This document shows, piece by piece, positions 47,331 to 59,434 of a stretch of 64,000 bases of DNA. The DNA is from Robertkochia solimangrovi. Its GTDB lineage: Bacteria > Bacteroidota > Bacteroidia > Flavobacteriales > Flavobacteriaceae. The position numbers were made by a program, and so were the translations under genes. Position 1 is the stretch's first letter. Every line of letters begins with the position of its first letter. Below the pieces are notes generated by a model that saw only the letters and a program-made list of their open reading frames with translations, did not search any database and was not told where the DNA came from. The stretch spans positions 124,001 to 188,000 of the forward strand of contig NZ_QKWN01000009.1 in assembly GCF_007279655.1 (NCBI RefSeq). Direction: 5' to 3'.

Positions 47331-48623
47331 CTAATTCATGCTATCCAGTGCTTTTTGCATTTTTATACGAATCTGATCGAAACCTGGATTGCCCAAACTT
47401 CCGAGATGCACATGTTTGATATCCCTTTTGGGTTCAAAAGTGCCTTCCTGAATCTCCATCCCCATTTTTTTATAAGCATCTCTGAAAGGAAGTCCCTGCA
47501 TTACCAAATCATTAAGTGTATCGACACTAAAGAGGTAATCATATTTCTTATCGCTTAGGATATCTTTATTGACCCTGATATTCTGAATGGAAAAATTGAG
47601 TAATTCCAGACAGGATTTCAGTTCTTGAATTCCCGGAACCAGAATCTCTTTGGTAAGTTGCATATCGCGATGATATCCACTTGGGAGGTTCGTCTGTAAC
47701 ATCGTAAGCGTGTTCGGGAGACTTTGCACCTTATTGCATTTACCTCTGATCAGTTCGAAAACATCCGGATTTTTTTTATGAGGCATAATACTCGAACCGG
47801 TCGTCAATTCGTCCGGAAAGCTTATAAAGTCGAAATTCTGACTCATGTACAGGCAGATATCCATAGCCATTTTAGAAAGGGTTCCGGCCACTGAACTCAT
47901 GGCAAAAGCCGTGCTCTTTTCCGTTTTTCCTCTTCCCATTTGGGCTGCAACAACATTGTATTTAAGCGTTTCGAACTCGAGTATTTGGGTCGTAAATTCA
48001 CGATCGATAGGGAAGGAGCTTCCGTATCCTGCTGCACTTCCCATAGGATTTTGATCGACACATTTTATTGCGGCATTAAGAAAGTGTACATCATCGATCA
48101 GACTTTCCGCATAGGCCGAGAACCACAAACCGAATGAAGACGGCATGGCGATCTGTAAATGCGTATATCCGGGTAATAAAATATTCTTATGTTTTTCAGA
48201 CAGATCCATTAGGGTAATAAACAGCGCTGATACCTGACCCACCATCGATTTCAATTCATGTTTCAGATATAACTGTATGGCAACTAAAACCTGGTCATTT
48301 CTTGACCTTGCTGTATGGATCTTTTTACCGGTATCACCCAGCTTTTCGGTAAGTATATATTCGATCTTAGAGTGAACATCTTCAAAACTGTCATCGATGA
48401 TGAATTCACCTTTTAGTATACTTTGTCGGATGGCTTCCAGGGCTACTACAAGTTGATCGGCTTCCTGCTGTTCGAGCAATCCTATCTTAGCCAGCATTCT
48501 CGCATGAGCCATGGAGGCAATTGTGTCGTATTCGGCAATCACCAGGTCGAGTTCTCTGTCTGAGCCTACGGTGAAGATATCTATTTTCTCATTGGTTGAG
48601 AATCCTTTATCCCAAAGTTTCAT
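47331..48623 (-). CDS. argH: Argininosuccinate lyase
   Basis: A 430-residue member of the fumarase/aspartase superfamily that splits argininosuccinate to arginine and fumarate, the final step. HTARSRNDQ, LPGYTHLQIAMP and the signature loop GSSIMPHKKNPD (catalytic Ser) are all present. It is the last gene of the arginine/proline operon, 19 bp behind the M20 deacylase gene. The order argG...argH at opposite ends of the operon is seen in other flavobacteria. Confidence 0.97.
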   Translation of the reverse strand: MKLWDKGFSTNEKIDIFTVGSDRELDLVIAEYDTIASMAHARMLAKIGLLEQQEADQLVVALEAIRQSILKGEFIIDDSFEDVHSKIEYILTEKLGDTGKKIHTARSRNDQVLVAIQLYLKHELKSMVGQVSALFITLMDLSEKHKNILLPGYTHLQIAMPSSFGLWFSAYAESLIDDVHFLNAAIKCVDQNPMGSAAGYGSSFPIDREFTTQILEFETLKYNVVAAQMGRGKTEKSTAFAMSSVAGTLSKMAMDICLYMSQNFDFISFPDELTTGSSIMPHKKNPDVFELIRGKCNKVQSLPNTLTMLQTNLPSGYHRDMQLTKEILVPGIQELKSCLELLNFSIQNIRVNKDILSDKKYDYLFSVDTLNDLVMQGLPFRDAYKKMGMEIQEGTFEPKRDIKHVHLGSLGNPGFDQIRIKMQKALDSMN

Positions 48624-48642
48624 TTGTCGTCAGTACTTTAAA

Positions 48643-49713
48643 TTATTTATTGATGATCACTTTCTCAAGGATCCTGATATAAAGATTAATCCCTTCCTTG
48701 ATTTCATCTACAAAGATATATTCATTTGCTGAATGAGATCGTGTTGAATCACCGGGGCCTAATTTCAGAGACTGACAACTGAGGGCAGCCTGATCTGAAA
48801 GGGTCGGAGATCCATAGGTGGTTCTGCCAAGACTCATACCTGCTTTTACCAGCTCATGATCTGGAGAGATCGCAGAGGAGTTTAATCTGAGCGATCTTGC
48901 TTTTAGGGTACATGGAGCTTCTTTCGTGAGTATTTCATTGATCTCTTCGTTTGAATACTTATCGTTAACCCTTACATCGACAACCAGATTGGTGTCCGCA
49001 GGTACTACGTTATGCTGACTGCCTGCATTGATTTGAGTTACCGTAAGTTTTACAGGTCCCAGAACATCAGATATTTTTTCAAAACGATAATCGCGGAACC
49101 ATTCGAGAACCTTGATGGTATTATAGATCGAATTATCATCATTCGGATGTGCAGCGTGACTCGGTGTTCCGTTTACGGTGGCATCAAAGACCACTAATCC
49201 TTTTTCAGCAATCGCAAGATTCATAAGCGTCGGTTCCCCGACGATTGCCACACTGATTTCAGGAAGATGTTTCAGAACTGAGTTGAGTCCGTGCGGTCCA
49301 CTGCTTTCTTCTTCTGCAGAAGCCACCACGACAAGGTTATATTTCAGATCCTCCCGATCATAATAATACGTGAACGTTGCCAGTAATGATACCAGGCATC
49401 CTCCGGCATCATTGCTTCCAAGTCCATATAATTTTCCGTCCTCGATATGTGGTTCAAAGGGATCTTTCGTGTAGGCTGTATTGGGTTTAACCGTATCGTG
49501 ATGAGAATTTAAAAGCAGTAAGGGTTTCCCTGTTGTATAGTGCTTATTAAACGCCCATACATTATTATTTTCTCTTTTGAAAGGGATGTTGTGAAGTTCG
49601 AACCATTTTTCTATAAGAGCAGCAGTTTTGTCCTCTTCTGAAGAAAAGGAAGGGGTGCTGATAAGATTCTTCAACAGTTCAATCGCCTGTTCGGTAAGTT
49701 CACTAATATTCAT
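48643..49713 (-). CDS. M20 family metallohydrolase, candidate N-acyl-ornithine/citrulline deacylase
   Basis: A 356-residue dizinc peptidase-fold enzyme. LNSHHDTVKP (zinc His, catalytic Asp), LGSNDAGGCLV (bridging Asp), ASAEEESSGPHG (general base Glu-Glu) and GEPT are visible. In this operon the acyl group must be removed after carbamoylation, so N-succinyl- (or N-acetyl-) citrulline is the likely substrate rather than acylornithine. Its ATG shares one base with the argB stop (TAATG), showing translational coupling. Confidence 0.87.
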   Translation of the reverse strand: MNISELTEQAIELLKNLISTPSFSSEEDKTAALIEKWFELHNIPFKRENNNVWAFNKHYTTGKPLLLLNSHHDTVKPNTAYTKDPFEPHIEDGKLYGLGSNDAGGCLVSLLATFTYYYDREDLKYNLVVVASAEEESSGPHGLNSVLKHLPEISVAIVGEPTLMNLAIAEKGLVVFDATVNGTPSHAAHPNDDNSIYNTIKVLEWFRDYRFEKISDVLGPVKLTVTQINAGSQHNVVPADTNLVVDVRVNDKYSNEEINEILTKEAPCTLKARSLRLNSSAISPDHELVKAGMSLGRTTYGSPTLSDQAALSCQSLKLGPGDSTRSHSANEYIFVDEIKEGINLYIRILEKVIINK

Positions 49714-50486
49714 TATAAGGTAATCGTGGTTTTTATTGATTCTTTACTTCTCAACATTTCAATGTTTCCAATATAGACTTTGTTGACACCTCTGTTCAAG
49801 GCATCAAAACAATTATGTAGTTTTGGAAGCATTCCGTCGGCAATGATTCCTGCTGCTTTCAGCTCTTCATAAGATTCTGTATCTATCGTACGAATCACAG
49901 AATCTTCATCGTTTATATTTTTTAGCACTCCTTTTTTCTCAAAGCAGTAATAAAGTTCTGTTTCATTTTGTTTGCTTAGCGCAACTGCTATTTCCGTAGC
50001 AATAGTATCGGCATTGGTATTGAAAAGTTGCCCTTTTCCGTCATGGGTGATTGCACAGCAAACCGGAGTAATTTCATGCTCCAGAAGCAATGTCAGCATC
50101 TTTTCATCAACGGCAGTTACATCGCCGACAAAACCAAAATCATGGGTTTTTACCGGTCTCTTTACCGAAGTAATCAGATTGAGGTCAGCTCCGGATACCC
50201 CTGTAGCATTACATGACCTTGCCTGTAATCCGGCTACGATCGATTTATTTACCAACCCGCCATATACCATGGTGATCACTTTGAGGGTTTCGCCGTCTGT
50301 GATCCTTCTCCCGTCTACCATATGTACCGGTATGCCCATGGTTTCGGCTAAATTGGTGGCAAGTTTACCGCCTCCGTGAATGAGTACTTTAGGTCCTTGG
50401 ATCGCTGAGAAGTCATCTAAAAAATGCTGCAGGGTATCCTGATTTTCGATCAGATTACCTCCGATCTTTACGATAGTCACTTTCAT
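49713..50486 (-). CDS. argB: N-acetylglutamate (N-acylglutamate) kinase
   Basis: A 257-residue amino-acid-kinase fold protein that phosphorylates the gamma-carboxyl of N-acylglutamate. IVKIGGNLIEN, LIHGGGKLATNLAE and NTNADTIATEIAVAL are the ATP and substrate motifs. ATG at 50486 gives MKVTIVKIGG, the natural start; a TTG four codons upstream is less likely. The arginine-sensing N-terminal helix of hexameric, feedback-inhibited kinases is missing, so control by arginine at this enzyme is less likely, which fits control at the leader. It starts 14 bp after argF'. Confidence 0.94.
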   Translation of the reverse strand: MKVTIVKIGGNLIENQDTLQHFLDDFSAIQGPKVLIHGGGKLATNLAETMGIPVHMVDGRRITDGETLKVITMVYGGLVNKSIVAGLQARSCNATGVSGADLNLITSVKRPVKTHDFGFVGDVTAVDEKMLTLLLEHEITPVCCAITHDGKGQLFNTNADTIATEIAVALSKQNETELYYCFEKKGVLKNINDEDSVIRTIDTESYEELKAAGIIADGMLPKLHNCFDALNRGVNKVYIGNIEMLRSKESIKTTITL

Positions 50487-50500
50487 TTTCTTAACCAAAA

Positions 50501-51445
50501 TTACGCATTTTGTTCTTCCAGGATTGATTTGATTACAGATTGTGCTGCCCAGGTTCGGTTATTCGCCTGTTGAATGACCAGCGACTGATCACTGTTGAGA
50601 ACCGCATCTTCAACGATAACATTTCTACGTACCGGTAAGCAGTGCATAAATTTAGCACTCCTGATCTTATCGAGTGTGATCATCCAGGACGGATCGTTCA
50701 ATAATATTTTTCCATAATCTGTAAAACTACTCCAATTCTTTGCGTAAACGAAATCTGCATCGGCAAGAGCTGCCTTCTGATCTCTGACAACCGGTGTATT
50801 TCCGATAATTTCCGGAGCGAGATCATAACCTTCCGGATTGGTGATCAAAAAGTCCACGTCCAGTAATTGCATCATTTTGGCAAAAGAATTAGGGACGGCA
50901 TGGGGTAAAGCCCTTGGGTGTGGAGCCCAGCTAAGTACGACCTTGGGTTTTGGTTTGTTCTTAAATTCTGTAATGGTGATCGCATCAGCCAGTGCCTGCA
51001 ATGGATGTGCGGTAGCACTTTCCATATTTACAACAGGAACAGAAGCGTAGGTACTGAAACTGTTCAGGATCATTTCTTTCTGATCCTCTTCCTTATTGGT
51101 TAGAGAAGGGAATGCTCTTAAGGCAATAATGTCTACATACTGTGAAATTACCGCTGCGGCTTCCCTGATATGCTCTGCAGTATCACCATCCATGATGGTT
51201 CCATCCTCAAATTCGAGTTTCCAGCCATCTGAATTGAGATTCATAACGATCACTTCCATGCCAAGGTTCTGAGCCGCCTTTTGAGTACTTAAACGGGTGC
51301 GTAAACTTGAATTGAAGAACAACATACCTATGGTTTTGTTACGGCCGAGTTCTTTAAATGCAAAAGGGTCTTTTTTCAGTGAAATGGCCTGCTCGATCAA
51401 TCGATCCAGATCAGGGATGTCGTTAAGATCTCTGTATTGTTTCAT
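50501..51445 (-). CDS. N-succinylornithine carbamoyltransferase (ArgF')
   Basis: A 314-residue transcarbamylase of the acetyl/succinyl-ornithine type. FFNSSLRTRLSTQKAA is the carbamoyl phosphate loop, ESATAHPLQALAD the second phosphate/substrate loop and HCLPVRRNV the C-terminal signature. In Xanthomonas acetylornithine transcarbamylase Glu92 (in DTEEH) sets acetyl preference, and changing it to Ala, Ser, Pro or Val gives succinylornithine preference; Bacteroides fragilis has Pro90. The aligned residue here is Ala90 (DTAEH), so I predict N-succinylornithine as substrate. It lies 32 bp after the proB copy at 51478. Confidence 0.9.
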   Translation of the reverse strand: MKQYRDLNDIPDLDRLIEQAISLKKDPFAFKELGRNKTIGMLFFNSSLRTRLSTQKAAQNLGMEVIVMNLNSDGWKLEFEDGTIMDGDTAEHIREAAAVISQYVDIIALRAFPSLTNKEEDQKEMILNSFSTYASVPVVNMESATAHPLQALADAITITEFKNKPKPKVVLSWAPHPRALPHAVPNSFAKMMQLLDVDFLITNPEGYDLAPEIIGNTPVVRDQKAALADADFVYAKNWSSFTDYGKILLNDPSWMITLDKIRSAKFMHCLPVRRNVIVEDAVLNSDQSLVIQQANNRTWAAQSVIKSILEEQNA

Positions 51446-51477
51446 TATTCTTTTTCAATTTTAATTTTTGATTCAAG

Positions 51478-52260
51478 TTATTTTACGCCTGCCGGAAATC
51501 GGGTATATCCGCCTTTTCCGCTGATAATATCCAGTAAGAATTCGTCTTTCAAACCATTGACGATCCACGTTTCTATACCGGCATTGGCTGCGATTTCAAC
51601 CGCATCTATTTTTGAACGCATTCCGCCCGTTCCATGGGACGATTTTTTATCCTCGATCTCTCGTAGTATGGTTTGAAGATCATTGACCTCTGCTATGGTT
51701 TCTGGAATTCCTTGTTGCATGGACTCCCGGGTATAAAGGCCATTGGTGTTGGTCGCAATGATCAACAGGTCTGCCTGAAGTAGAGCTGCGGTTAAAGCTG
51801 CCAGTTTATCATTATCTCCAAATTTTATTTCATCGGTAGCTACGGTATCATTTTCGTTGATAACCGGGATATAGTCATGTTCCAGTAAGGTATTGACCGT
51901 ATTGATGATGTTCTTTCGGGATTCTTCACTTCGGAAGTCGGAGTAGGTGAGCAGACATTGGGAAACAAGTAAACCCAGCTCGCGGAAATTTTCCTGATAG
52001 ATTCTCATCAGATGAAGTTGCCCTATGGCTGCCAGAGCTTGTTTTACCTTAATTTCCTTACCATTGCTTTCAAGGTCAACGAATTGCCTTGCCGCAGCAA
52101 TAGCCCCTGAACTAACTACAATGAACTCATAGGTGTCTTTTAAACTGGCGATTTGCCTTGCCATGTCTTCGATCTTCCCACGCGATATATAGTTGGTTTC
52201 ACGGGTAAGGGTGTTTGAACCTACCTTCAATACGACCCTTTTCTTTTTGGTTGTTTCCAT
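51478..52260 (-). CDS. proB: Glutamate 5-kinase, paralogue 1 (no PUA domain)
   Basis: A 260-residue amino-acid kinase that makes gamma-glutamyl phosphate for proline synthesis. LKVGSNTLTRE is the ATP loop, SSGAIAAARQF (51-61) the glutamate loop, PVINENDTVATDEI and FGDNDKLAAL the active-site segments and HGTGGMRSKIDAV the Lys region. It lacks the C-terminal PUA domain of E. coli ProB (367 residues). It is the downstream member of a tandem pair, keeps the canonical SGAIAA loop, and is separated from paralogue 2 by a 73 bp gap with a 10 bp-stem hairpin. Confidence 0.93.
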   Translation of the reverse strand: METTKKKRVVLKVGSNTLTRETNYISRGKIEDMARQIASLKDTYEFIVVSSGAIAAARQFVDLESNGKEIKVKQALAAIGQLHLMRIYQENFRELGLLVSQCLLTYSDFRSEESRKNIINTVNTLLEHDYIPVINENDTVATDEIKFGDNDKLAALTAALLQADLLIIATNTNGLYTRESMQQGIPETIAEVNDLQTILREIEDKKSSHGTGGMRSKIDAVEIAANAGIETWIVNGLKDEFLLDIISGKGGYTRFPAGVK

Positions 52261-52282
52261 TTTTGGTCGATCGTGAAATGCT

Positions 52283-52313
52283 GGAGAAAGATCTCATTTA
52301 TCGATCTTTCTCC
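52283..52313 (-). other. Intercistronic hairpin between the two proB paralogues
   Basis: A perfect 10 bp stem, GGAGAAAGAT / ATCTTTCTCC, around an 11-base loop. It lies 20 bases after the stop of the upstream paralogue and 22 bases before the start of the downstream one. No T-run follows on the minus strand, so it is more likely a partial terminator, RNase-stabiliser or processing site than a full terminator. Confidence 0.6.
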
Positions 52314-52333
52314 GAGCACACACTGCAAATATG

Positions 52334-53113
52334 CTATTCTATTTTGGTGAACGCGGTATCCTTGTTCAGTGTATTTAAAATAAAGTTATCCTCCAGGCCG
52401 TTCACGATCCAGGTCTCGATATTCGCGTTGTTAGCGATCTCAAGCGCCATAACCTTGGAGCTCATACCTCCCGTTCCGTGTGTCGATTTATCATCATCGA
52501 CCACTTCTTTCTTAAGTAAGCTGAAGTCATCCACTTCTTCGATGGTTTCCGGCGTACCCTCACGGAAGGATTCTTTTGTATAGATACCGTTGGTGTTGGT
52601 CGCAATGATGAGCAGATCAACATCCAGTAAAGCTGCGGTTAAAGCCGCCAGCTTATCGTTATCACCGAATTGGATCTCATCGGTTGCAACGGTATCATTT
52701 TCATTTATAATGGGGATATATTCGTTCTCCACCAGAATATCAATGGTATTTCTGATATTTTCCCTGGAAACTTCCTTTTCAAAATCTGAATAGGAGAGTA
52801 AACACTGCGAGGCGAGAAGTCCCAGTTCTCTGAAACTTTCCTGAAATATACGGATCAGGTGAGGCTGTCCGATGGAGGTCAGCGCCTGTTTTACGTTGAT
52901 ATCCTTATAATCGCTTTCCAGGTTGACGAATTGCTTGGCAACTACTTTTGCACCGGAACTCACGATAACAAATTCATAATCGTCTTTTAAAGCGGCGATC
53001 TGTCTTCCGATATCTTCAATTTTACCTCTTGATAACTGGTCGGATTCTTTTGTAAGCGTATTTGATCCTATTTTTAACAGGATTCTTTTTTTCTTCTTTT
53101 CTGGCTTACTCAT
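52334..53113 (-). CDS. Glutamate 5-kinase, paralogue 2 (divergent substrate loop)
   Basis: A 259-residue copy aligned end to end with paralogue 1, most positions identical by eye. It keeps LKIGSNTLTKE, PIINENDTVATDEI, FGDNDKLAAL and HGTGGMSSKV, so it is probably an active kinase. The glutamate loop differs: SSGAKVVAKQF (52-62) against SSGAIAAARQF, with Lys in place of the conserved Ile, and GQPHLIRIFQ against GQLHLMRIYQ. That could alter affinity or proline feedback. It begins with a Lys-rich tail (SKPEKKKKR). It lies 89 bp after proA and 73 bp before paralogue 1. Confidence 0.9.
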   Translation of the reverse strand: MSKPEKKKKRILLKIGSNTLTKESDQLSRGKIEDIGRQIAALKDDYEFVIVSSGAKVVAKQFVNLESDYKDINVKQALTSIGQPHLIRIFQESFRELGLLASQCLLSYSDFEKEVSRENIRNTIDILVENEYIPIINENDTVATDEIQFGDNDKLAALTAALLDVDLLIIATNTNGIYTKESFREGTPETIEEVDDFSLLKKEVVDDDKSTHGTGGMSSKVMALEIANNANIETWIVNGLEDNFILNTLNKDTAFTKIE

Positions 53114-53144
53114 TTTGTTGTTTTTTGAATTTTCCCTTGGACAT

Positions 53145-53163
53145 CGAAGGCATAGGGCCTTCG
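53145..53163 (-). other. Intercistronic hairpin between proA and proB paralogue 2
   Basis: Stem CGAAGGC / GCCTTCG around a 5-base loop. On the transcribed strand a run of T's precedes it rather than follows it, so it is not an ordinary terminator for this operon. Together with the hairpin at 52283 it brackets paralogue 2. Confidence 0.5.
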
Positions 53164-53202
53164 GAAAAAATTAGATTAAATTAGTTATACAATATTTTAT
53201 GA

Positions 53203-54399
53203 TCACCGAATTTGCCCGTTTCCGTGTACGTACCATTTATTGGTTACCAAATGTTGCAGACCTATTGGGCCGCGTTGATGCAATTTATCGGTACTGATCG
53301 CAAGTTCTCCACCGAGGCCAAACTGACCTCCGTCTGTAAACCTTGTGGATGCATTATGATAAACCGCTGCGGTATCCACGTTTGCCATAAATTGCTCGGC
53401 AACGCTATTATCTCTGGTGATGATTGAGCTGGAATGTCCGCCAGAATATTTATTGATAAAGGCGATAGTTTCTTCTACGGTTTCCGTAGTTCCGATCACG
53501 ATCTTATAATCGAGAAACTCTTCATGCCAGACATTTTCATCGGTTAGGGTAGTGGTGCCTTCCGTTCCTTTCAGGGATGTATCGGTAAGGATCTCCACAT
53601 CATATTCGCTGAGCGCTTTGATCAGGCTGTTAACAAATTCCGTATAATTTGGAAGATTGCGGTCAATCAGTACTTTGTCAAGCGCATTACAAGCCGATAT
53701 TTTGGCTGTTTTAGCATTTACGATAACCTTTTTTGCTAATTCAAGATCAGCATCCTTATGTACGTAAACAAAGTTATTACCTCTTCCGCTTACAATGACC
53801 GGACAGGTCGCATTCTCTTTAACAAATGCGATCAGGCGTTCTCCACCTCTGGGAACGATAAGGTCAACCGGTTCTGTAGGGTTGGCCAGAAATTCCTGAG
53901 TTTGCTGACGGTCGAATTTGAGGTAATCGATCCATGAAGTAGTCACTCCATGTTTTTTCATGGCTTTATGCCAGAGTTCCGTGATGGTAAGGTTCGAATT
54001 CAATGATTCCTTACCACCTTTTAGTAAGATTTTGTTTCCAGATTTAAAAGCGATACCAGCTGCTTCAACCGTAACATCGGGACGTGACTCATAAATGATC
54101 ATCACGGTTCCGAAAGGCGCGGTCTTATTGAAGATCTCTAATCCGTTATCATGGGTAAAATGAAAGCGTTCCTTTCCAAGCGGGTCTTCATCCGAAGCTA
54201 GCTTGTGAAGAGAAGCGATCATACCTTCGATCTTGGCATCGTCAACCTTTAAGCGGTCTTCCATGGCAAGATCATCTCCGTGATAACTGTCGAGATCTTT
54301 CCGGTTAGCGTTAAGGATTGCCTGCTTTTCATCAGCGATTAGCTCAGCCATCGTTAACAATACATTGTTTCGCTCTTGAATCGTTAGTGTCGTATTCAT
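53203..54399 (-). CDS. proA: Gamma-glutamyl phosphate reductase
   Basis: A 398-residue aldehyde-dehydrogenase-fold enzyme reducing gamma-glutamyl phosphate to glutamate semialdehyde, the second proline step. PFGTVMIIYESRPDVTVEAAG is the NADPH-binding start, AKISACNALDKVLI carries the catalytic Cys, and STRFTDGGQFGLGGELAISTDKLHQRGP is the C-terminal signature. Its ATG shares one base with the argD stop (TAATG). It supplies the shared semialdehyde chemistry beside the acylated arginine branch. Confidence 0.97.
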   Translation of the reverse strand: MNTTLTIQERNNVLLTMAELIADEKQAILNANRKDLDSYHGDDLAMEDRLKVDDAKIEGMIASLHKLASDEDPLGKERFHFTHDNGLEIFNKTAPFGTVMIIYESRPDVTVEAAGIAFKSGNKILLKGGKESLNSNLTITELWHKAMKKHGVTTSWIDYLKFDRQQTQEFLANPTEPVDLIVPRGGERLIAFVKENATCPVIVSGRGNNFVYVHKDADLELAKKVIVNAKTAKISACNALDKVLIDRNLPNYTEFVNSLIKALSEYDVEILTDTSLKGTEGTTTLTDENVWHEEFLDYKIVIGTTETVEETIAFINKYSGGHSSSIITRDNSVAEQFMANVDTAAVYHNASTRFTDGGQFGLGGELAISTDKLHQRGPIGLQHLVTNKWYVHGNGQIR

Positions 54400-55535
54400 T
54401 ACTTGGTCTTCTCCAGGAGATCGGTAAATGCGTCGATAAACTCATCTACATGACTCCTTTTCAAAGTGAGGGGTGGTAAGATTCTTATAAGGTTCTTATT
54501 CGACGAGCCACCCGTAAATATTTTTTTCTCGTAAATAAGCCTTTTTCGTATTTCGGCTACAGGTTGTTCAAACTCCATACCAAGCATGAGTCCTTTGCCT
54601 TTAATTTGTTTTAAACCTGGGATTTCCCCGGCTTTTTCAATGAAGTATTCAGATATAACATTCACATTTTCAATGAGATTCTCTGAATCTAAAACCTCCA
54701 GCACGGCAATCGCAGCAGCACATGCGAGGTGATTACCCCCAAAAGTTGTCCCGAGCATTCCGTGTTTTGCCTGGAATTTTGGATGGATGAGAATTCCCCC
54801 AATAGGAAAACCGTTTCCCATTCCTTTTGCGACTGAAATGATGTCAGGTTGTATGTCAAAATGTTGGAAAGCAAAGAATTTACCACTTCTTCCATAACCG
54901 GATTGAATCTCATCTGCGATAAATACGGTTTCGTATTGGTCACAAAGTCTTCGGATATCCGCTATGAATGCGGAAGTAGGCATGTCAAGACCGCCAACAC
55001 CCTGAATACATTCGATGATCACCGCACAAACATCTCCTTTAGCCAGTTCCGCTTCTAAAGCGACACTGTCATCGAAAGGGATGAATGTAGTTTCATGCTG
55101 CGCATTGATAGGAGCATTGATCCCCGGGTTGTCAGTAGCAGCTACTGCTGCTGAGGTACGGCCATGGAAAGCCTTATTAAAGGCGATCACCCGTTTCTTA
55201 CCATTATGAAAAGATGCTAGTTTCAGCGCATTTTCATTGGCTTCCGCACCTGAGTTACACAGGAACAATGCATAATCATCGCATCCTGATAGTTTTCCCA
55301 GTTTTTCTGCCAGCTCCACCTGTAATGGATTTTGGACAGCGTTGGAATAGAACCCGATCGCATTCAGCTGGTCGGTCAGCTTACTTACGTAAACGGGGTG
55401 TGCATGGCCTATAGAGATCACGGCATGCCCGCCATATAGATCAAGGTACTCAGTACCGTTCTCGTCATACACGTTGACATCCTTCCCTTTTACGGGAGTG
55501 ATATCATAAAGGGGATATACATCGAATAATTTCAT
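54399..55535 (-). CDS. argD: N-acyl-ornithine aminotransferase (class III, ArgD-like)
   Basis: A 378-residue PLP enzyme that converts N-acylglutamate semialdehyde to N-acylornithine. LDLYGGHAVISIGHAHP, LFLCNSGAEANENALKLA (phosphate loop), FIADEIQSGYGRSGKFF (PLP Asp) and SVAKGMGNGFPIGG (Schiff-base Lys) are present. The family also includes ornithine aminotransferases, but the place between proC and proA in an arg operon supports the ArgD role. It lies 5 bp after proC and overlaps proA by one base. Confidence 0.93.
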   Translation of the reverse strand: MKLFDVYPLYDITPVKGKDVNVYDENGTEYLDLYGGHAVISIGHAHPVYVSKLTDQLNAIGFYSNAVQNPLQVELAEKLGKLSGCDDYALFLCNSGAEANENALKLASFHNGKKRVIAFNKAFHGRTSAAVAATDNPGINAPINAQHETTFIPFDDSVALEAELAKGDVCAVIIECIQGVGGLDMPTSAFIADIRRLCDQYETVFIADEIQSGYGRSGKFFAFQHFDIQPDIISVAKGMGNGFPIGGILIHPKFQAKHGMLGTTFGGNHLACAAAIAVLEVLDSENLIENVNVISEYFIEKAGEIPGLKQIKGKGLMLGMEFEQPVAEIRKRLIYEKKIFTGGSSNKNLIRILPPLTLKRSHVDEFIDAFTDLLEKTK

Positions 55536-55540
55536 TTCTT

Positions 55541-56329
55541 TTATTGAATATTAGAGATCCTTCGGTATGCCGCCATAATACCTTTGATCACCGAAGAGGT
55601 GAGTCCGTTGTGTTCCATGGCGTTCAGACCTTCAATTGTACAGCCTTGAGGAGTCGTCACATTATCAACCTCAACCTCTGCGTGTGTTCCGTCTTCAATC
55701 AGTGCGGCTGCTCCGATCGCTACCTGTGCTGCGATCGATTGCGCTTCATGAGGGTGGAAACCCATTTGTACACCTCCCTGCGTCATAGCTCGTAAAAATC
55801 TAAGGAAGAATGCGGTACCGCTGGCACCCAGAACGGTGGCTGCCTGCATGAGTCGTTCTTCGATTCGAATAGCTTTTCCGATCGTAGTGAACATTTTTTC
55901 AACGAATATGGTATCTTCATCTTCGAGTTCATTTGCACAGATAAATGACATGGATGCCTGTTTCACTGCAGCGGTATTCGGCATAGCACGAATCACCTTA
56001 TTCGAAGGAATGTATTCATTGATCTCACTGATCGAGACTCCTGTAATCGTTGAGATCACCACCTGATCTTCTTTTAGGTGGTCTTTGATCTCATTCATCA
56101 CTACCGGTAATATTCTCGGTTGAACGGAAAGAATGATCATTCGGGATTGTGCGATAGCTTCCAGATTATTCTCTGTAACCGTCACACCGGCTTCCTGTTG
56201 AATGTTGTTGAGGTTTTCTTTTGATTTGTCTGCTACGATGATGTCCTTTGGATCAAACATATCGCTGGATGCTAACCCTTTAATGATTGAACTTCCCAGA
56301 TTTCCTGATCCAATAACTGTAACTTTCAT
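55541..56329 (-). CDS. proC: Pyrroline-5-carboxylate reductase
   Basis: A 262-residue NADPH enzyme for the last proline step. VIGSGNLGSSIIKGLA is the dinucleotide loop, VIRAMPNTAAVKQASMSF the conserved substrate loop, and VTTPQGCTIEGLNAMEHNGL the C-terminal signature. Its presence in the arginine operon, with proA and proB, makes this a joint arginine-proline unit. It lies 17 bp after argC. Confidence 0.96.
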   Translation of the reverse strand: MKVTVIGSGNLGSSIIKGLASSDMFDPKDIIVADKSKENLNNIQQEAGVTVTENNLEAIAQSRMIILSVQPRILPVVMNEIKDHLKEDQVVISTITGVSISEINEYIPSNKVIRAMPNTAAVKQASMSFICANELEDEDTIFVEKMFTTIGKAIRIEERLMQAATVLGASGTAFFLRFLRAMTQGGVQMGFHPHEAQSIAAQVAIGAAALIEDGTHAEVEVDNVTTPQGCTIEGLNAMEHNGLTSSVIKGIMAAYRRISNIQ

Positions 56330-56346
56330 TTAATGTTTGTTTTTTG

Positions 56347-57321
56347 TTAGAAATAACTTCCTTTTAAATTTAAACCCGTTACTTCATCTAAACCGAAAAG
56401 TAAGTTCATATTCTGCACTGCCTGTCCCGAGGCTCCCTTCACAAGGTTGTCGATAATACTGGTGATTAAAAGCACATCGTCATGGACATGCAAATGAATA
56501 AAGCAATTATTGGTGTTTACCACCTGCTTCAGATGAATTTCCTTTTCAGATACGTGAACGAACGGATGACTAACATAATATTTCTCGTACAAATTCCAAG
56601 TTTCCTCGGGTTTTAATACATTTTTAACATATGCTGTTGCAAATATACCTCTCGTAAAATCACCTCTTTGCGGAAGGAAATACATCTTTGGAAGTTCCTG
56701 TTGAAGGGAACTTAAACTTTGATTGATCTCTCCCAAATGTTGATGGGTAAAGGGTTTGTACCAGGAGAAGTTATTATTACGCCAACTGAAATGGGAAGTC
56801 GCTGAAGGAACTACTCCGGCTCCTGTACTACCAGTGGTCGCATTGACATGCATATCACTCCCGATCAGTCCCTCTGCGGCCAGCGGTAACAAAGCCAGTT
56901 GTATCGCAGTGGCAAAACAACCCGGATTAGCGATTGCATCGGCTTCCATGATCGCCTCCTTTTGTAACTCGGGCAATCCGTATACGAATTTCCTTCCTCC
57001 GAATTCGGCATCTGCATTCAATCTGAAATCGTTGCTCAGGTCGATGATCTTTGTCTTATCGGAGAAATTATGTGCCGCCAGAAACTTCCCGGAATTTCCA
57101 TGTCCGAGACAGAGAAACAATACATCGATCTCAGGATCGATCGTATCGGTAAAAGTAAGATCACATTGACCATACAGATCTTCATGGGTTGCGCTTATCG
57201 GGCTTCCTGCTCTTGTGGTACTATAAACGAATCCGATCTCAGCCTTGGGGTGGTTCAGCAAAATTCTGATGAGTTCACCCCCGGTGTATCCGGATCCTCC
57301 TATGATTCCTGCTCTGATCAT
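56347..57321 (-). CDS. argC: N-acetyl-gamma-glutamyl-phosphate reductase
   Basis: A 324-residue enzyme reducing N-acylglutamyl phosphate to the semialdehyde. AGIIGGSGYTGGELIRILL is the NADP-binding start, IANPGCFATAIQLALLPL carries the catalytic Cys, and FTHQHLGEINQSL the conserved His. The ATG overlaps the last base of the argG stop (TAATG). No feature distinguishes acetyl from succinyl substrate here by eye. Confidence 0.96.
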   Translation of the reverse strand: MIRAGIIGGSGYTGGELIRILLNHPKAEIGFVYSTTRAGSPISATHEDLYGQCDLTFTDTIDPEIDVLFLCLGHGNSGKFLAAHNFSDKTKIIDLSNDFRLNADAEFGGRKFVYGLPELQKEAIMEADAIANPGCFATAIQLALLPLAAEGLIGSDMHVNATTGSTGAGVVPSATSHFSWRNNNFSWYKPFTHQHLGEINQSLSSLQQELPKMYFLPQRGDFTRGIFATAYVKNVLKPEETWNLYEKYYVSHPFVHVSEKEIHLKQVVNTNNCFIHLHVHDDVLLITSIIDNLVKGASGQAVQNMNLLFGLDEVTGLNLKGSYF

Positions 57322-58505
57322 TACTTATCGTGGTTTACGGCCTGAGCGATCTTCGCCGCATTAGCACTTAATTTGATGAATCCTTTAGCCTCTTCAGAGG
57401 TCCATCCTTTGTTCATTTCCCCATAACTACCGAAACTGGCATTCATCAGGTCATGTTTCGAGGAGATTCCGTCTACCTGGAATCGGTACGGATGCAGCGT
57501 AACGTATACATCGCCACTTACGTATTTCTGTGAATCTTCAAGGAAAGCTTCGATATTTCTCATTACTTCATCGAGATAGTTTCCTTCATGTAGTAACATG
57601 CCATACCAGTTAGACAAGTAATCCTTATGTTGTTGCTGCCACTTGCTCAATACATGTTTCTCCAGCAAATGATGTGCTTTGATCAATATGAGTGGGGCAG
57701 GAGCTTCAAATCCAACTCTTCCTTTGATACCGATGATCGTATCTCCGACATGAATATCTCTTCCGATCGCATATTGAGAAGCGATAGCGGTCAGTTTTTC
57801 GATGAGGGCAACAGGATTGTCTTCAACACCGTCGATCGCTGCGATCTGTCCCTTTTTAAAGGTAAGGGTCAGGGTCTTTGGTGTTTCGGTCTTTAATTGA
57901 CTCGGATAAGCACTATCCGGTAGCGGCTTGTCAGAAGTAAGGGTCTCGCTTCCTCCCACACTGGTTCCCCAAAGTCCTTTATTAATCGAATATTGTGCTT
58001 TCTCCCACGAAAGACTGATTCCTTTACTGTTCAGGTAATCGATCTCCTCTTGTCGGGAAAGTTTGAGGTCCCGGATAGGAGTGATGATCTCGATCTCCGG
58101 TGCCAGTATTTGAAAAATCATATCAAAACGAACCTGATCATTTCCTGCTCCAGTACTCCCGTGTGCGATGAATTGAGCCCCGATCTTCTTTGCGTAATTA
58201 ACGATTTCAATAGCCTGAACGATACGCTCAGCACTAACAGAAAGCGGATAGGTATTGTTCTTCAGTATGTTTCCAAAGATCAGATACTTTACTACTTTGT
58301 TATAAAAGTTATCCAGCGCATCCAGACTTTTATAGGTCGATGCACCTAATTGCAGTGCTCTCTCCTGAATCGATTTAATTTCTTCCTCTGAAAATCCTCC
58401 TGTATTTACACTTACAGCATGTACCTCATACCCGTTCTCAGACAGGTATTTTGCACAATAAGAAGTGTCAAGGCCACCGCTGTAAGCTAAAACTAATTTT
58501 TTCAT
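57321..58505 (-). CDS. argG: Argininosuccinate synthase
   Basis: A 394-residue ATP-pyrophosphatase enzyme joining citrulline and aspartate. LAYSGGLDTSYCAKYL is the P-loop (SGGxDTS), and FIAHGSTGAGNDQVRFDM the citrulline/ATP region; both are diagnostic. It is the second gene of the operon, 28 bp after the GNAT gene, and overlaps argC by one base. Being close to the leader, it would respond directly to attenuation by arginine. Confidence 0.97.
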   Translation of the reverse strand: MKKLVLAYSGGLDTSYCAKYLSENGYEVHAVSVNTGGFSEEEIKSIQERALQLGASTYKSLDALDNFYNKVVKYLIFGNILKNNTYPLSVSAERIVQAIEIVNYAKKIGAQFIAHGSTGAGNDQVRFDMIFQILAPEIEIITPIRDLKLSRQEEIDYLNSKGISLSWEKAQYSINKGLWGTSVGGSETLTSDKPLPDSAYPSQLKTETPKTLTLTFKKGQIAAIDGVEDNPVALIEKLTAIASQYAIGRDIHVGDTIIGIKGRVGFEAPAPLILIKAHHLLEKHVLSKWQQQHKDYLSNWYGMLLHEGNYLDEVMRNIEAFLEDSQKYVSGDVYVTLHPYRFQVDGISSKHDLMNASFGSYGEMNKGWTSEEAKGFIKLSANAAKIAQAVNHDK

Positions 58506-58533
58506 CGTTCTGTTTTAATTGATATATGATTTG

Positions 58534-59157
58534 TTATTTTTCTTTTTTTAAAAAAAGACTCTCTTTGATACTTTTTAATCTTTTGAAGACCTTTTTATCG
58601 TATTGATGTTTGTGATCCTTTTTGTTCTTTTCTTTTTCTGCAGGGTCATAGAGCATTCCCGTACACAAACACATCTTTCTTTCCGTTCTGGTGAGAATGT
58701 CGAAGTTCTTACAGGTTTTACAACCATCCCAGAAACTGGGATCATCGGTAAGTTCAGAAAAGGTAACTGGTTCGTAGCCGAGATCGTAATTGATCTTCAT
58801 CACAGCAAGTCCTGTAGTGATACCAAAGATCTTGGCATCCGGAAATTTTGAACGGCTATGTTCAAATACCTTCTTTTTGATTTGGGTTGCCAGTCCCGAA
58901 CCCCTGAAATCAGGGTGTACGATCAATCCTGAATTGGCCACATATTTACCGTGACCCCAGGTTTCGATATAACAGAAACCGGCAAAACGATTGCCATCCA
59001 GAGCTATAACCGCATTGCCATTTGTGATTTTTGTGGCAATGTACTCCGGTGTTCTTTTTGCTATTCCAGTTCCTCGCTGTTTGGCTGATTCCTCAATGGT
59101 ATCACAGATTTCCTGAGCATATGGAATATGCGAATCATTTGCAATAAGTATTTGCAT
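58534..59157 (-). CDS. GNAT acyltransferase, candidate N-acylglutamate synthase for the arginine pathway
   Basis: A 207-residue GNAT protein. AVIALDGNRFAGFCYIETWG holds the central strands, and GLIVHPDFRGSGLATQIKK is the acyl-CoA pyrophosphate loop (RGSGLA). The C-terminal part adds four clustered cysteines (CKTCKNF...MCLCTG), possibly metal-binding, and a Lys-rich tail. The operon has every arginine step except glutamate acylation, with no ArgA, ArgJ or fused amino-acid-kinase synthase, so this first gene is the best candidate, perhaps using succinyl-CoA given Ala90 in ArgF'. ATG at 59157 is preferred; a TTG two codons upstream is also open. Confidence 0.75.
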   Translation of the reverse strand: MQILIANDSHIPYAQEICDTIEESAKQRGTGIAKRTPEYIATKITNGNAVIALDGNRFAGFCYIETWGHGKYVANSGLIVHPDFRGSGLATQIKKKVFEHSRSKFPDAKIFGITTGLAVMKINYDLGYEPVTFSELTDDPSFWDGCKTCKNFDILTRTERKMCLCTGMLYDPAEKEKNKKDHKHQYDKKVFKRLKSIKESLFLKKEK

Positions 59158-59204: not shown

Positions 59205-59226
59205 GGAACCGGACACACCTGGTTCC
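59205..59226 (-). promoter_or_regulatory. Hairpin downstream of the arginine leader peptide
   Basis: GGAACC / GGTTCC around a 10-base loop, located between the leader stop codon and the GNAT start. On the transcribed strand it is followed by CCCCTTC and only about 20 bases later by T-rich sequence. It could be part of a terminator/antiterminator pair or mask translation of the first structural gene. Confidence 0.4.
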
Positions 59227-59244
59227 AATAAAATATGCACACCC

Positions 59245-59361
59245 TTACGGGCGGCGGCGGGGAGAATGCTCTTGACGGCGAACTGGAATCATAACGTAAG
59301 CAGGGGCTGTTGCGAAAAAAGCCCTGATCGTTTTAATAATATTGATTAATTCCTGATACAT
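59245..59361 (-). CDS. Arginine-rich leader peptide (38 codons) of the arginine/proline operon
   Basis: Minus-strand frame from ATG (59361) to TAA (59245). It contains six arginine codons: AGG at codon 13, CGC CGT at codons 28-29 and CGC CGC CGC at codons 35-37, followed by CCG TAA. An internal ATG at codon 24 (59292) would give a 15-residue peptide, MIPVRRQEHSPRRRP, closer to the usual leader length and one-third arginine. It lies 87 nt before the first gene of an operon whose end product is arginine, in the same direction. Stalling of the ribosome at these codons when charged tRNA-Arg is scarce is the expected control. Codons CGC are GC-rich in an AT-rich gap. Confidence 0.65.
   Translation of the reverse strand: MYQELINIIKTIRAFFATAPAYVMIPVRRQEHSPRRRP
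59301..59326 (-). promoter_or_regulatory. Hairpin inside the arginine leader
   Basis: CAGGGCT / AGCCC(C)TG with one bulged C and a T-rich loop, within leader codons 12-21 and upstream of the main arginine codons. In classical attenuators a pause hairpin lies near the start of the leader; this could be its equivalent or compete with a downstream structure. Confidence 0.4.
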
Positions 59362-59434
59362 CCGTAATTGTTCTTTTCCTAAATGGAAGTACAATATTAT
59401 AAATTAATTTTAATTTATGAACCTATTTCTTTGT

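Follow-up and report, generated by a model that had tools for sequence, protein, structure and literature searches.

In Salmonella, the speF leader orf34 consists of 34 codons with consecutive arginine codons, and its translation at low or high arginine sets the folding of the RNA (PMC6386406; this and the other papers are cited here and below from excerpts of their text). In Actinobacteria, cysteine leaders without a conserved terminator hairpin have been described, and in the LEU element the run of codons is base-paired (PMC1262725). Here we describe a candidate arginine leader in Robertkochia solimangrovi (Flavobacteriaceae; assembly GCF_007279655.1, contig NZ_QKWN01000009.1, positions 124,001 to 188,000), a stretch of 64,000 nucleotides (nt) that was analysed as a whole and is called the window. 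The leader is a 38-codon frame that ends in arginine codons, stands before a twelve-gene arginine/proline operon and is associated with two small hairpins, P1 and P2. The arginine genes of many bacteria in this mostly marine family are preceded by such a tiny conserved gene, whose arginine codon run is part of small RNA hairpins and which most likely serves to sense a shortage of arginine and to switch the genes on.

For Bacteroidota, the transcriptome of Flavobacterium psychrophilum gave strong clues for leader-peptide attenuation upstream of amino-acid operons, stated in one sentence (PMC9723704), and the map of Bacteroides thetaiotaomicron reported short open reading frames (ORF) reminiscent of leader peptides, arginine being unmentioned in the excerpted text (PMC7366714). 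PMC2864571 also lists, with no Rfam number given, a GUCCY-hairpin that occurs in Bacteroidetes and Proteobacteria. In the open-licence literature, no recognisable arginine leader peptide for arginine synthesis in Bacteroidota was found among the matches listed. This is consistent with an earlier note on the window, made from the letters alone, which had called such control little described in Bacteroidota.

Comparison with relatives supports a coding-like frame, arginine codons with a bias to CGT or CGC (CGY), the P1/P2 structure, an upstream promoter-like element and an association with the arginine operon. The observation made in the earlier note is, by these comparisons, real and far above chance. 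Beyond it, the arginine codons are found to be one arm of the conserved hairpin P1 in the aligned relatives, and a second conserved hairpin, P2, follows.

The leader frame and its conservation

The frame runs on the minus strand from ATG at 59361 to TAA at 59245-59247 and its translation is MYQELINIIKTIRAFFATAPAYVMIPVRRQEHSPRRRP (38 aa). Its C-terminal end is Arg-Arg-Arg-Pro-stop, and the last of these arginine codons begins the 5′ arm of P1. The parts read in the sequence are as follows.

59245..59361, minus strand: leader peptide frame, 38 codons plus TAA; read directly, conserved in relatives
59245..59292, minus strand: the same frame from the internal ATG at 59292, a 15-mer with five arginines; read directly
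59275..59280, minus strand: first arginine pair, CGC CGT; read directly
59251..59259, minus strand: arginine run CGC CGC CGC, then CCG TAA; read directly
59392..59399, minus strand: promoter-like −7 element TAATATTG, ahead of the leader frame; sequence read

The earlier note had described this minus-strand frame with its two groups of arginine codons and the short internal alternative, and direct reading confirmed both. It had also placed the frame 87 nt before the first of twelve arginine/proline genes; the gap to the first gene (start 59157) and the identification of the genes agree with this. Pfam and NCBIfam models gave no match to the 38-aa peptide up to E 1.

The first operon gene, encoding a GNAT acetyltransferase, is present in 197 of 299 genomes of Flavobacteriaceae, and loci were fetched through this gene only, the locus of the window included. 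The 148 loci entered comprised 130 of the 197 gene-positive genomes, 15 picked because R1, a structural model of P1 and P2, missed them, and 3 extra ones from genus g128; 147 passed the script filter. An upstream ORF with an adjacent arginine pair near its end was found at 130 of the 147 loci, and one with at least three arginines near its end at 126, compared with 12.6% and 5.5% in shuffles of the same stretches. This count is less biased than counts in sets selected by P1 and P2.

For the frame itself, 191 leaders were collected, 156 of them non-redundant. Among the 191 are 76 of 80 loci taken from further contigs, where the exact P1/P2 pattern gave at least 118 stretches. The 60 nt before P1 were stop-free in the arginine frame in all 156 non-redundant leaders, and in 52 and 58 in the other two frames (shuffle expectation 67). 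At 115 to 60 nt upstream of P1, 108 ATGs were in the arginine frame and 16 and 5 out of frame; a GTG or TTG start 84 or 87 nt before P1 was assigned in 54 of the 191 leaders, under a rule that preferred ATG and otherwise took the start codon nearest to −80. The motif TAnnHTTG was found no more than 40 nt upstream of the leader ATG in 44 of 61 non-redundant relatives with ATG at 66-80 nt before P1, and a control stretch lying farther upstream had it in none of the 61 (shuffle rate 0.085); the window, whose ATG is 108 nt before P1, was excluded from this test. Judged by these counts, the leader frame behaves as coding and its start positions follow the promoter-like elements.

Codons were compared in an alignment of 115 leaders, gathered by a P2-like pattern (125 of 130 loci passed, 115 of the 125 were aligned, near-copies were left out by eye, and row L030 is anchored at a wrong P2). 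Since such sets were gathered by pattern, the conservation of P1 and P2 in them is biased upwards. The last arginine codon is kept in 115 of 115 leaders, the preceding codon is arginine in 108, and seven further positions upstream have arginine in 17-54%. The other residues of the peptide drift, and upstream of the last arginine pair none except arginine is strongly conserved. The check suggested in the earlier note came out in its favour: relatives keep the short frame with consecutive arginine codons, the remaining peptide drifts, and promoter-like elements precede the frame.

The codon choice is also peculiar to the leader. CGY accounts for 337 of 371 arginine codons in leaders vs 242 of 922 in the gene behind (p = 6e-108), whose commonest arginine codon is AGA. 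At two loci where the P2 core is absent (L313 and L316), a short frame has an arginine run of CGA, AGG, AGA and one CGT and ends in Arg-Glu-stop. Taken over the aligned sequences, the arginine codons are what is kept in the leader.

A second upstream ATG frame with an arginine-rich end, in tandem with the first, was found at 25 of 130 loci, and 18 of these resemble MKNLKNKIRCTTPGLPVRNRRRF by eye. This tandem frame, of the type M--KNKIR---PGL--RNRRR, is more conserved and lies about 300 nt before the first gene (L009, L011, L028, L035 and others).

Hairpins, terminators and the tie to the operon

P1 is a 5-bp hairpin whose 5′ arm is made of the last arginine codon and the first two bases of the proline codon, and in most relatives the stop codon is in its loop. 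The hairpins and the spacer between P1 and P2 are placed as follows.

59301..59326, minus strand: P0 hairpin inside the frame, upstream of the arginine codons; from folding, position and sequence vary in relatives
59240..59253, minus strand: P1 hairpin CGCCC-GUAA-GGGUG, stop codon in the loop; terminator scan and alignment
59227..59239, minus strand: U-rich spacer separating P1 from P2; 8-15 nt long and 54% T in 156 leaders
59205..59226, minus strand: P2 hairpin GGAACC-A-GG-UGUGU-CC-GGUUCC; covariation in 115 relatives

P2 combines a bulged A in its stem with two G-C pairs and a loop of the form UGNGU. In the 115 relatives, seven of its eight pairs changed on both sides at least once and 95.8% of cells are paired; the P2 core is nearly invariant whereas the stem covaries. 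For P1 and P2 together, the covariation score was 0.269; shuffles scored 0.128 and slid controls no higher than 0.101. One measure, the count of pair types (19), is unexceptional, as 49 of 500 shuffles reached it, and the other four measures were reached by 0 or 1.

Hairpins on both sides of the arginine codons had been proposed in the earlier note. The upstream one (59326-59301) and the downstream one (59226-59205) were recovered, and the middle one (59253-59240) does not flank the codons but contains them together with the stop. A hairpin upstream of the arginine codons occurs in many leaders, in variable place and sequence; for P0, the only consensus apart from P1 that alifold gave in four length groups was a 3-bp stem in one of them.

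The leader in the window has no strong terminator, and one weak terminator-like match was found at P1 (1 found, 0.4 expected), so the absence of a clear T-run terminator, also remarked in the earlier note, holds. Over the 156 leaders, a strong terminator (7-bp stem, 6 of 8 T) was found in 7 (0.5 expected), and in 4 of the 7 it lay upstream of P1. Under looser conditions, with a 5-bp stem and 5 of 8 T, 82 leaders matched vs 10.5 expected, 69 of them at P1. The intrinsic terminator with a T-run before the first gene, by which a classical attenuator is recognized, was not found in the arginine leader.

Two leaders elsewhere in the same genome, missed in the earlier note, are classical terminator attenuators.

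L332 1300-1423 (G000:C14): his leader before hisG, five His codons in a row followed by a 13-bp terminator and its T-run
L333 3039-2923 (G000:C3), minus strand: trp leader before a trpE-like gene, three Trp codons in a row and a 13-bp terminator

The trpE-like gene behind the trp leader scores below the curated cut-off. The ArgR family was found neither in this genome nor in any of 149 family genomes, with the control set positive in 9 of 14; ArgR was therefore rejected as the regulator.

The R1 search of this genome gave one strong site and two weak ones (E 0.22 and 1.8), and the E 0.22 match is inside a long open frame. An R1 site was found in 183 of the 299 Flavobacteriaceae genomes; when the tables were compared by eye, the element was in 180 of the 197 genomes with the first gene and in 3 genomes without it. 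Exact matches to the P1/P2 pattern include, among the matches listed, contigs of Zobellia, Maribacter, Winogradskyella and Cellulophaga, with Z. uliginosa DSM 2061 and C. baltica as examples. In a sample of the phylum, 28 of 395 genomes had R1 matches, 16 of them Flavobacteriaceae. The 12 other matches (E 6e-4 to 9e-3) are unlike the element by eye and were treated as noise; outside the family, this sample gave weak matches only. The phylum sample was searched without gene calling, and searches of more than 40 genomes use stricter filters, by which weak matches are lost.

The genes behind the leader, and the loci with another first gene, are the following.

58534..59157, minus strand: first operon gene, GNAT acetyltransferase; gene list and family models
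47331..59157, minus strand: 12-gene arginine/proline operon; gene list and family models
L330 1354-1938: first operon gene replaced (weak acetyltransferase), leader element kept
L331 1655-2248: first operon gene replaced (acetyltransferase by Pfam), leader element kept

The operon contains the acetyltransferase, argG, argC, proC, argD, proA, two proB, an argF-type carbamoyltransferase, argB, an argE/dapE-type deacylase and argH. By their spacing and strand, the twelve minus-strand genes probably form one co-transcribed unit. The two proB genes (glutamate 5-kinase) are adjacent, at 51478-53113 of the window, and both match TIGR01027.

In two genomes, G084 and G152, a different gene is first and the element still precedes argG and argC; the replacement is an acetyltransferase by Pfam in G152 and weakly so in G084. 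The third element-positive genome without the first gene is G254 (E 9.5e-4). Because the element is kept with another first gene, it belongs to the operon and not to the first gene. P2 as a binding site for the protein of the first gene is weakened as well, since the two genomes with another first gene keep P2.

The genome contains 24 matches to the P2 core, AGGTGNGTCC, the same number as to its reversed control; of these, only the match at the arginine operon has an outer stem longer than 3 pairs, with 6. P2 is thus specific to the arginine operon in this genome, and P2 as a general module was rejected. Pairing of P2 with the 3′ end of 16S rRNA, taken as AGGUGA, is made less likely by changes from G-C to A-U that preserve the P2 stem but would abolish this pairing (L017, L048). 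The Rfam search of the window stretch gave no meaningful match (best E 2.9) and 11 relatives gave 0 matches up to E 1, so identity with an Rfam family, Bacteroid-trp and Flavo-1 included, was rejected at the level of covariance models.

Probable arginine sensing and its proposed readout

We consider that the arginine leader is probably a ribosome-mediated attenuator that senses charged tRNA-Arg. It shows two features of this kind, a short ORF at the start of the operon and a codon run for the amino acid that is made. The lack of ArgR and the his and trp leader attenuators of the same genome also count in favour of this reading. Arginine sensing is well supported by the comparison of leaders; from their arrangement we infer translation, stalling, the direction of control, the roles of P1 and P2 and the readout.

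On this reading the transcript would begin shortly before the leader frame, and the 38 codons of the frame would be translated by a ribosome. When arginine is sufficient, the ribosome would pass the CGY run, end at UAA and leave, so that P1 folds and expression of the operon is reduced. When charged tRNA-Arg is short, it would wait on the CGY run and cover the 5′ arm of P1, which would keep P1 open and the operon on. P2, at a near-fixed distance behind P1, may act as its constant partner and convert the folding state of P1 into an outcome, probably through timing or an effect on RNA polymerase. The readout is most likely transcriptional, by pausing or by termination that is weak or helped by Rho within the U-rich stretch, given that about 50 nt separate the end of P2 from the first start codon and that the controlled unit comprises twelve genes. 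The earlier note had proposed that arginine shortage stalls the ribosome and opens the operon. The sensing part of this proposal is supported by comparison; the opening of the operon, and the Rho-dependent or translational readout which the note had considered, would be further steps beyond what was compared.

We also put forward, tentatively, that the leader might be a terminator-free attenuator, in which the regulatory codons are one arm of a hairpin that usually encloses the stop, and P2 provides a site that is recognized by RNA polymerase, by a protein or by arginine itself. If true, this type would be a two-part arginine sensor replacing ArgR in much of Flavobacteriaceae, and some lineages of this sensor would carry two arginine-rich leader peptides in tandem.

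Several observations weigh against the attenuator reading. Only one of the five P1 pairs shows covariation (C-G to A-U in five leaders, with CGCAC/GUGCG forms), and the outermost P1 pair is unpaired in 30 of 113 leaders. The T residues that follow P1 are no better positioned than those of shuffled spacers and the terminator match is weak only, on which P1 was rejected as an ordinary terminator; it may be a weak terminator or pause hairpin, not a standard one. P1 is also covered by a ribosome that has reached the stop codon, which means that the outcome must depend on its timing with respect to RNA polymerase. The covariation scan found no clear pairing beyond P1 and P2 and no mutually exclusive partner of P1, a part which the ribosome itself could play by excluding P1. 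The fold of the 271-nt leader is as stable as its shuffles (z = 0.03), which makes stability alone uninformative and leaves the evidence comparative. An upstream frame with an arginine pair near its end was not seen at 17 of the 147 loci, and in genus g128 (L312, L314, L315, L324) the acetyltransferase gene is present with an upstream arginine leader or P2 core in 0 of 4. Three arginine leaders (L313, L316 and L326) are without the P2 core, which means that P2 is not needed everywhere.

Besides attenuation by the ribosome, control of translation or of mRNA stability was weighed, in which leader translation and P1/P2 folding would alter the access of ribosomes or nucleases, as for Salmonella speF orf34. 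That system is a described case with arginine codons and mRNA decay (PMC6386406), and most leaders here are without a strong terminator. We nevertheless regard this reading as unlikely: P2 ends about 50 nt ahead of the first start codon, the covariation scan found no clear pairing with the start region of the first gene, and the first gene can differ while the leader is kept. The sequences compared lend no support to pairing as a means of controlling the first start codon.

A nascent peptide ending in Arg-Arg-Pro might also sense free arginine or a related metabolite and arrest the ribosome at the stop, for which the TnaC-like and SpeFL-like arrest peptides are the model. Termination after proline is generally slow, and proline follows the arginine pair in 107 of the 115 aligned leaders, with the stop directly after this position in 104. 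However, the proline is replaced in the other 8 (5 Thr, 2 Leu, 1 Arg), the five Thr replacements accompany a changed P1 stem, and the stop is moved 3-10 codons downstream in 11 leaders, 10 of which retain the arginine pair at the P1 arm. The fixed residues and fixed stop position of arrest peptides of TnaC type are therefore not found. Because the stop and the proline move while the arginine codons stay, the codons rather than a fixed Arg-Pro-stop arrest seem to be the point, and the CGY bias would be unexpected if the peptide alone mattered. The drift of all residues except arginine upstream of the last pair also speaks against an arrest peptide, which we hold to be improbable.

To a slightly lesser degree still, one may believe that P1 and P2 are primarily a protein- or ligand-binding RNA and that the arginine-rich frame is secondary. 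A P2 core that hardly varies within a covarying stem, found with the arginine operon alone in this genome, would suit a binding site, and the architecture of P2 may resemble that of phage coat-protein operators. On the other side, the evidence from frame and codons reaches well beyond P1/P2, arginine leaders persist in relatives without the P2 core, and the conservation of P2 is partly a selection effect of the way the sets were gathered. That the frame stands in the leader by chance, for which only the ordinary folding of the single sequence could be quoted, is refuted by the comparative counts (frame, arginine codons, CGY bias and the 147 loci) and deserves hardly any credence.

Comparison with described leaders

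The attenuator reading offers a testable answer to how arginine synthesis is controlled in a large family in which no ArgR was found, and the genome itself allows a comparison of his and trp leaders with terminators and an arginine leader without one. Like the his and trp leaders, the arginine leader has a short ORF close behind a promoter-like element of TAnnTTTG type (by eye) and a run of the cognate codon. Unlike them, with their 13-bp terminators and T-runs, it has P1 and P2 and no such terminator. According to theory, the way in which a tRNA loses its charge decides which codons are used for regulation (PMC1183508), and the choice of CGY before a gene whose commonest arginine codon is AGA would be a good case for it.

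Among the systems described in the excerpted literature, Salmonella speF orf34 is similar in its consecutive arginine codons and in that a hairpin just downstream of the stop matters (PMC6386406). It differs in controlling ornithine decarboxylase instead of arginine synthesis, in a readout by Rho and RNase G, and in that rare or frequent arginine codons both work; the two are likened by description, not by sequence or structure. The Actinobacterial LEU element and cysteine leaders share a leader ORF with a regulatory codon run, and LEU has a conserved RNA structure, but they respond to leucine or cysteine (PMC1262725). The Bacteroid-trp and Flavo-1 motifs are likewise candidate structured RNAs of Bacteroidetes (PMC2864571), to which the window stretch and the 11 relatives give no meaningful match. 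The arginine leader would be of the ribosome-attenuator kind already known, with P1 and P2 in place of a classical terminator as its variant feature.
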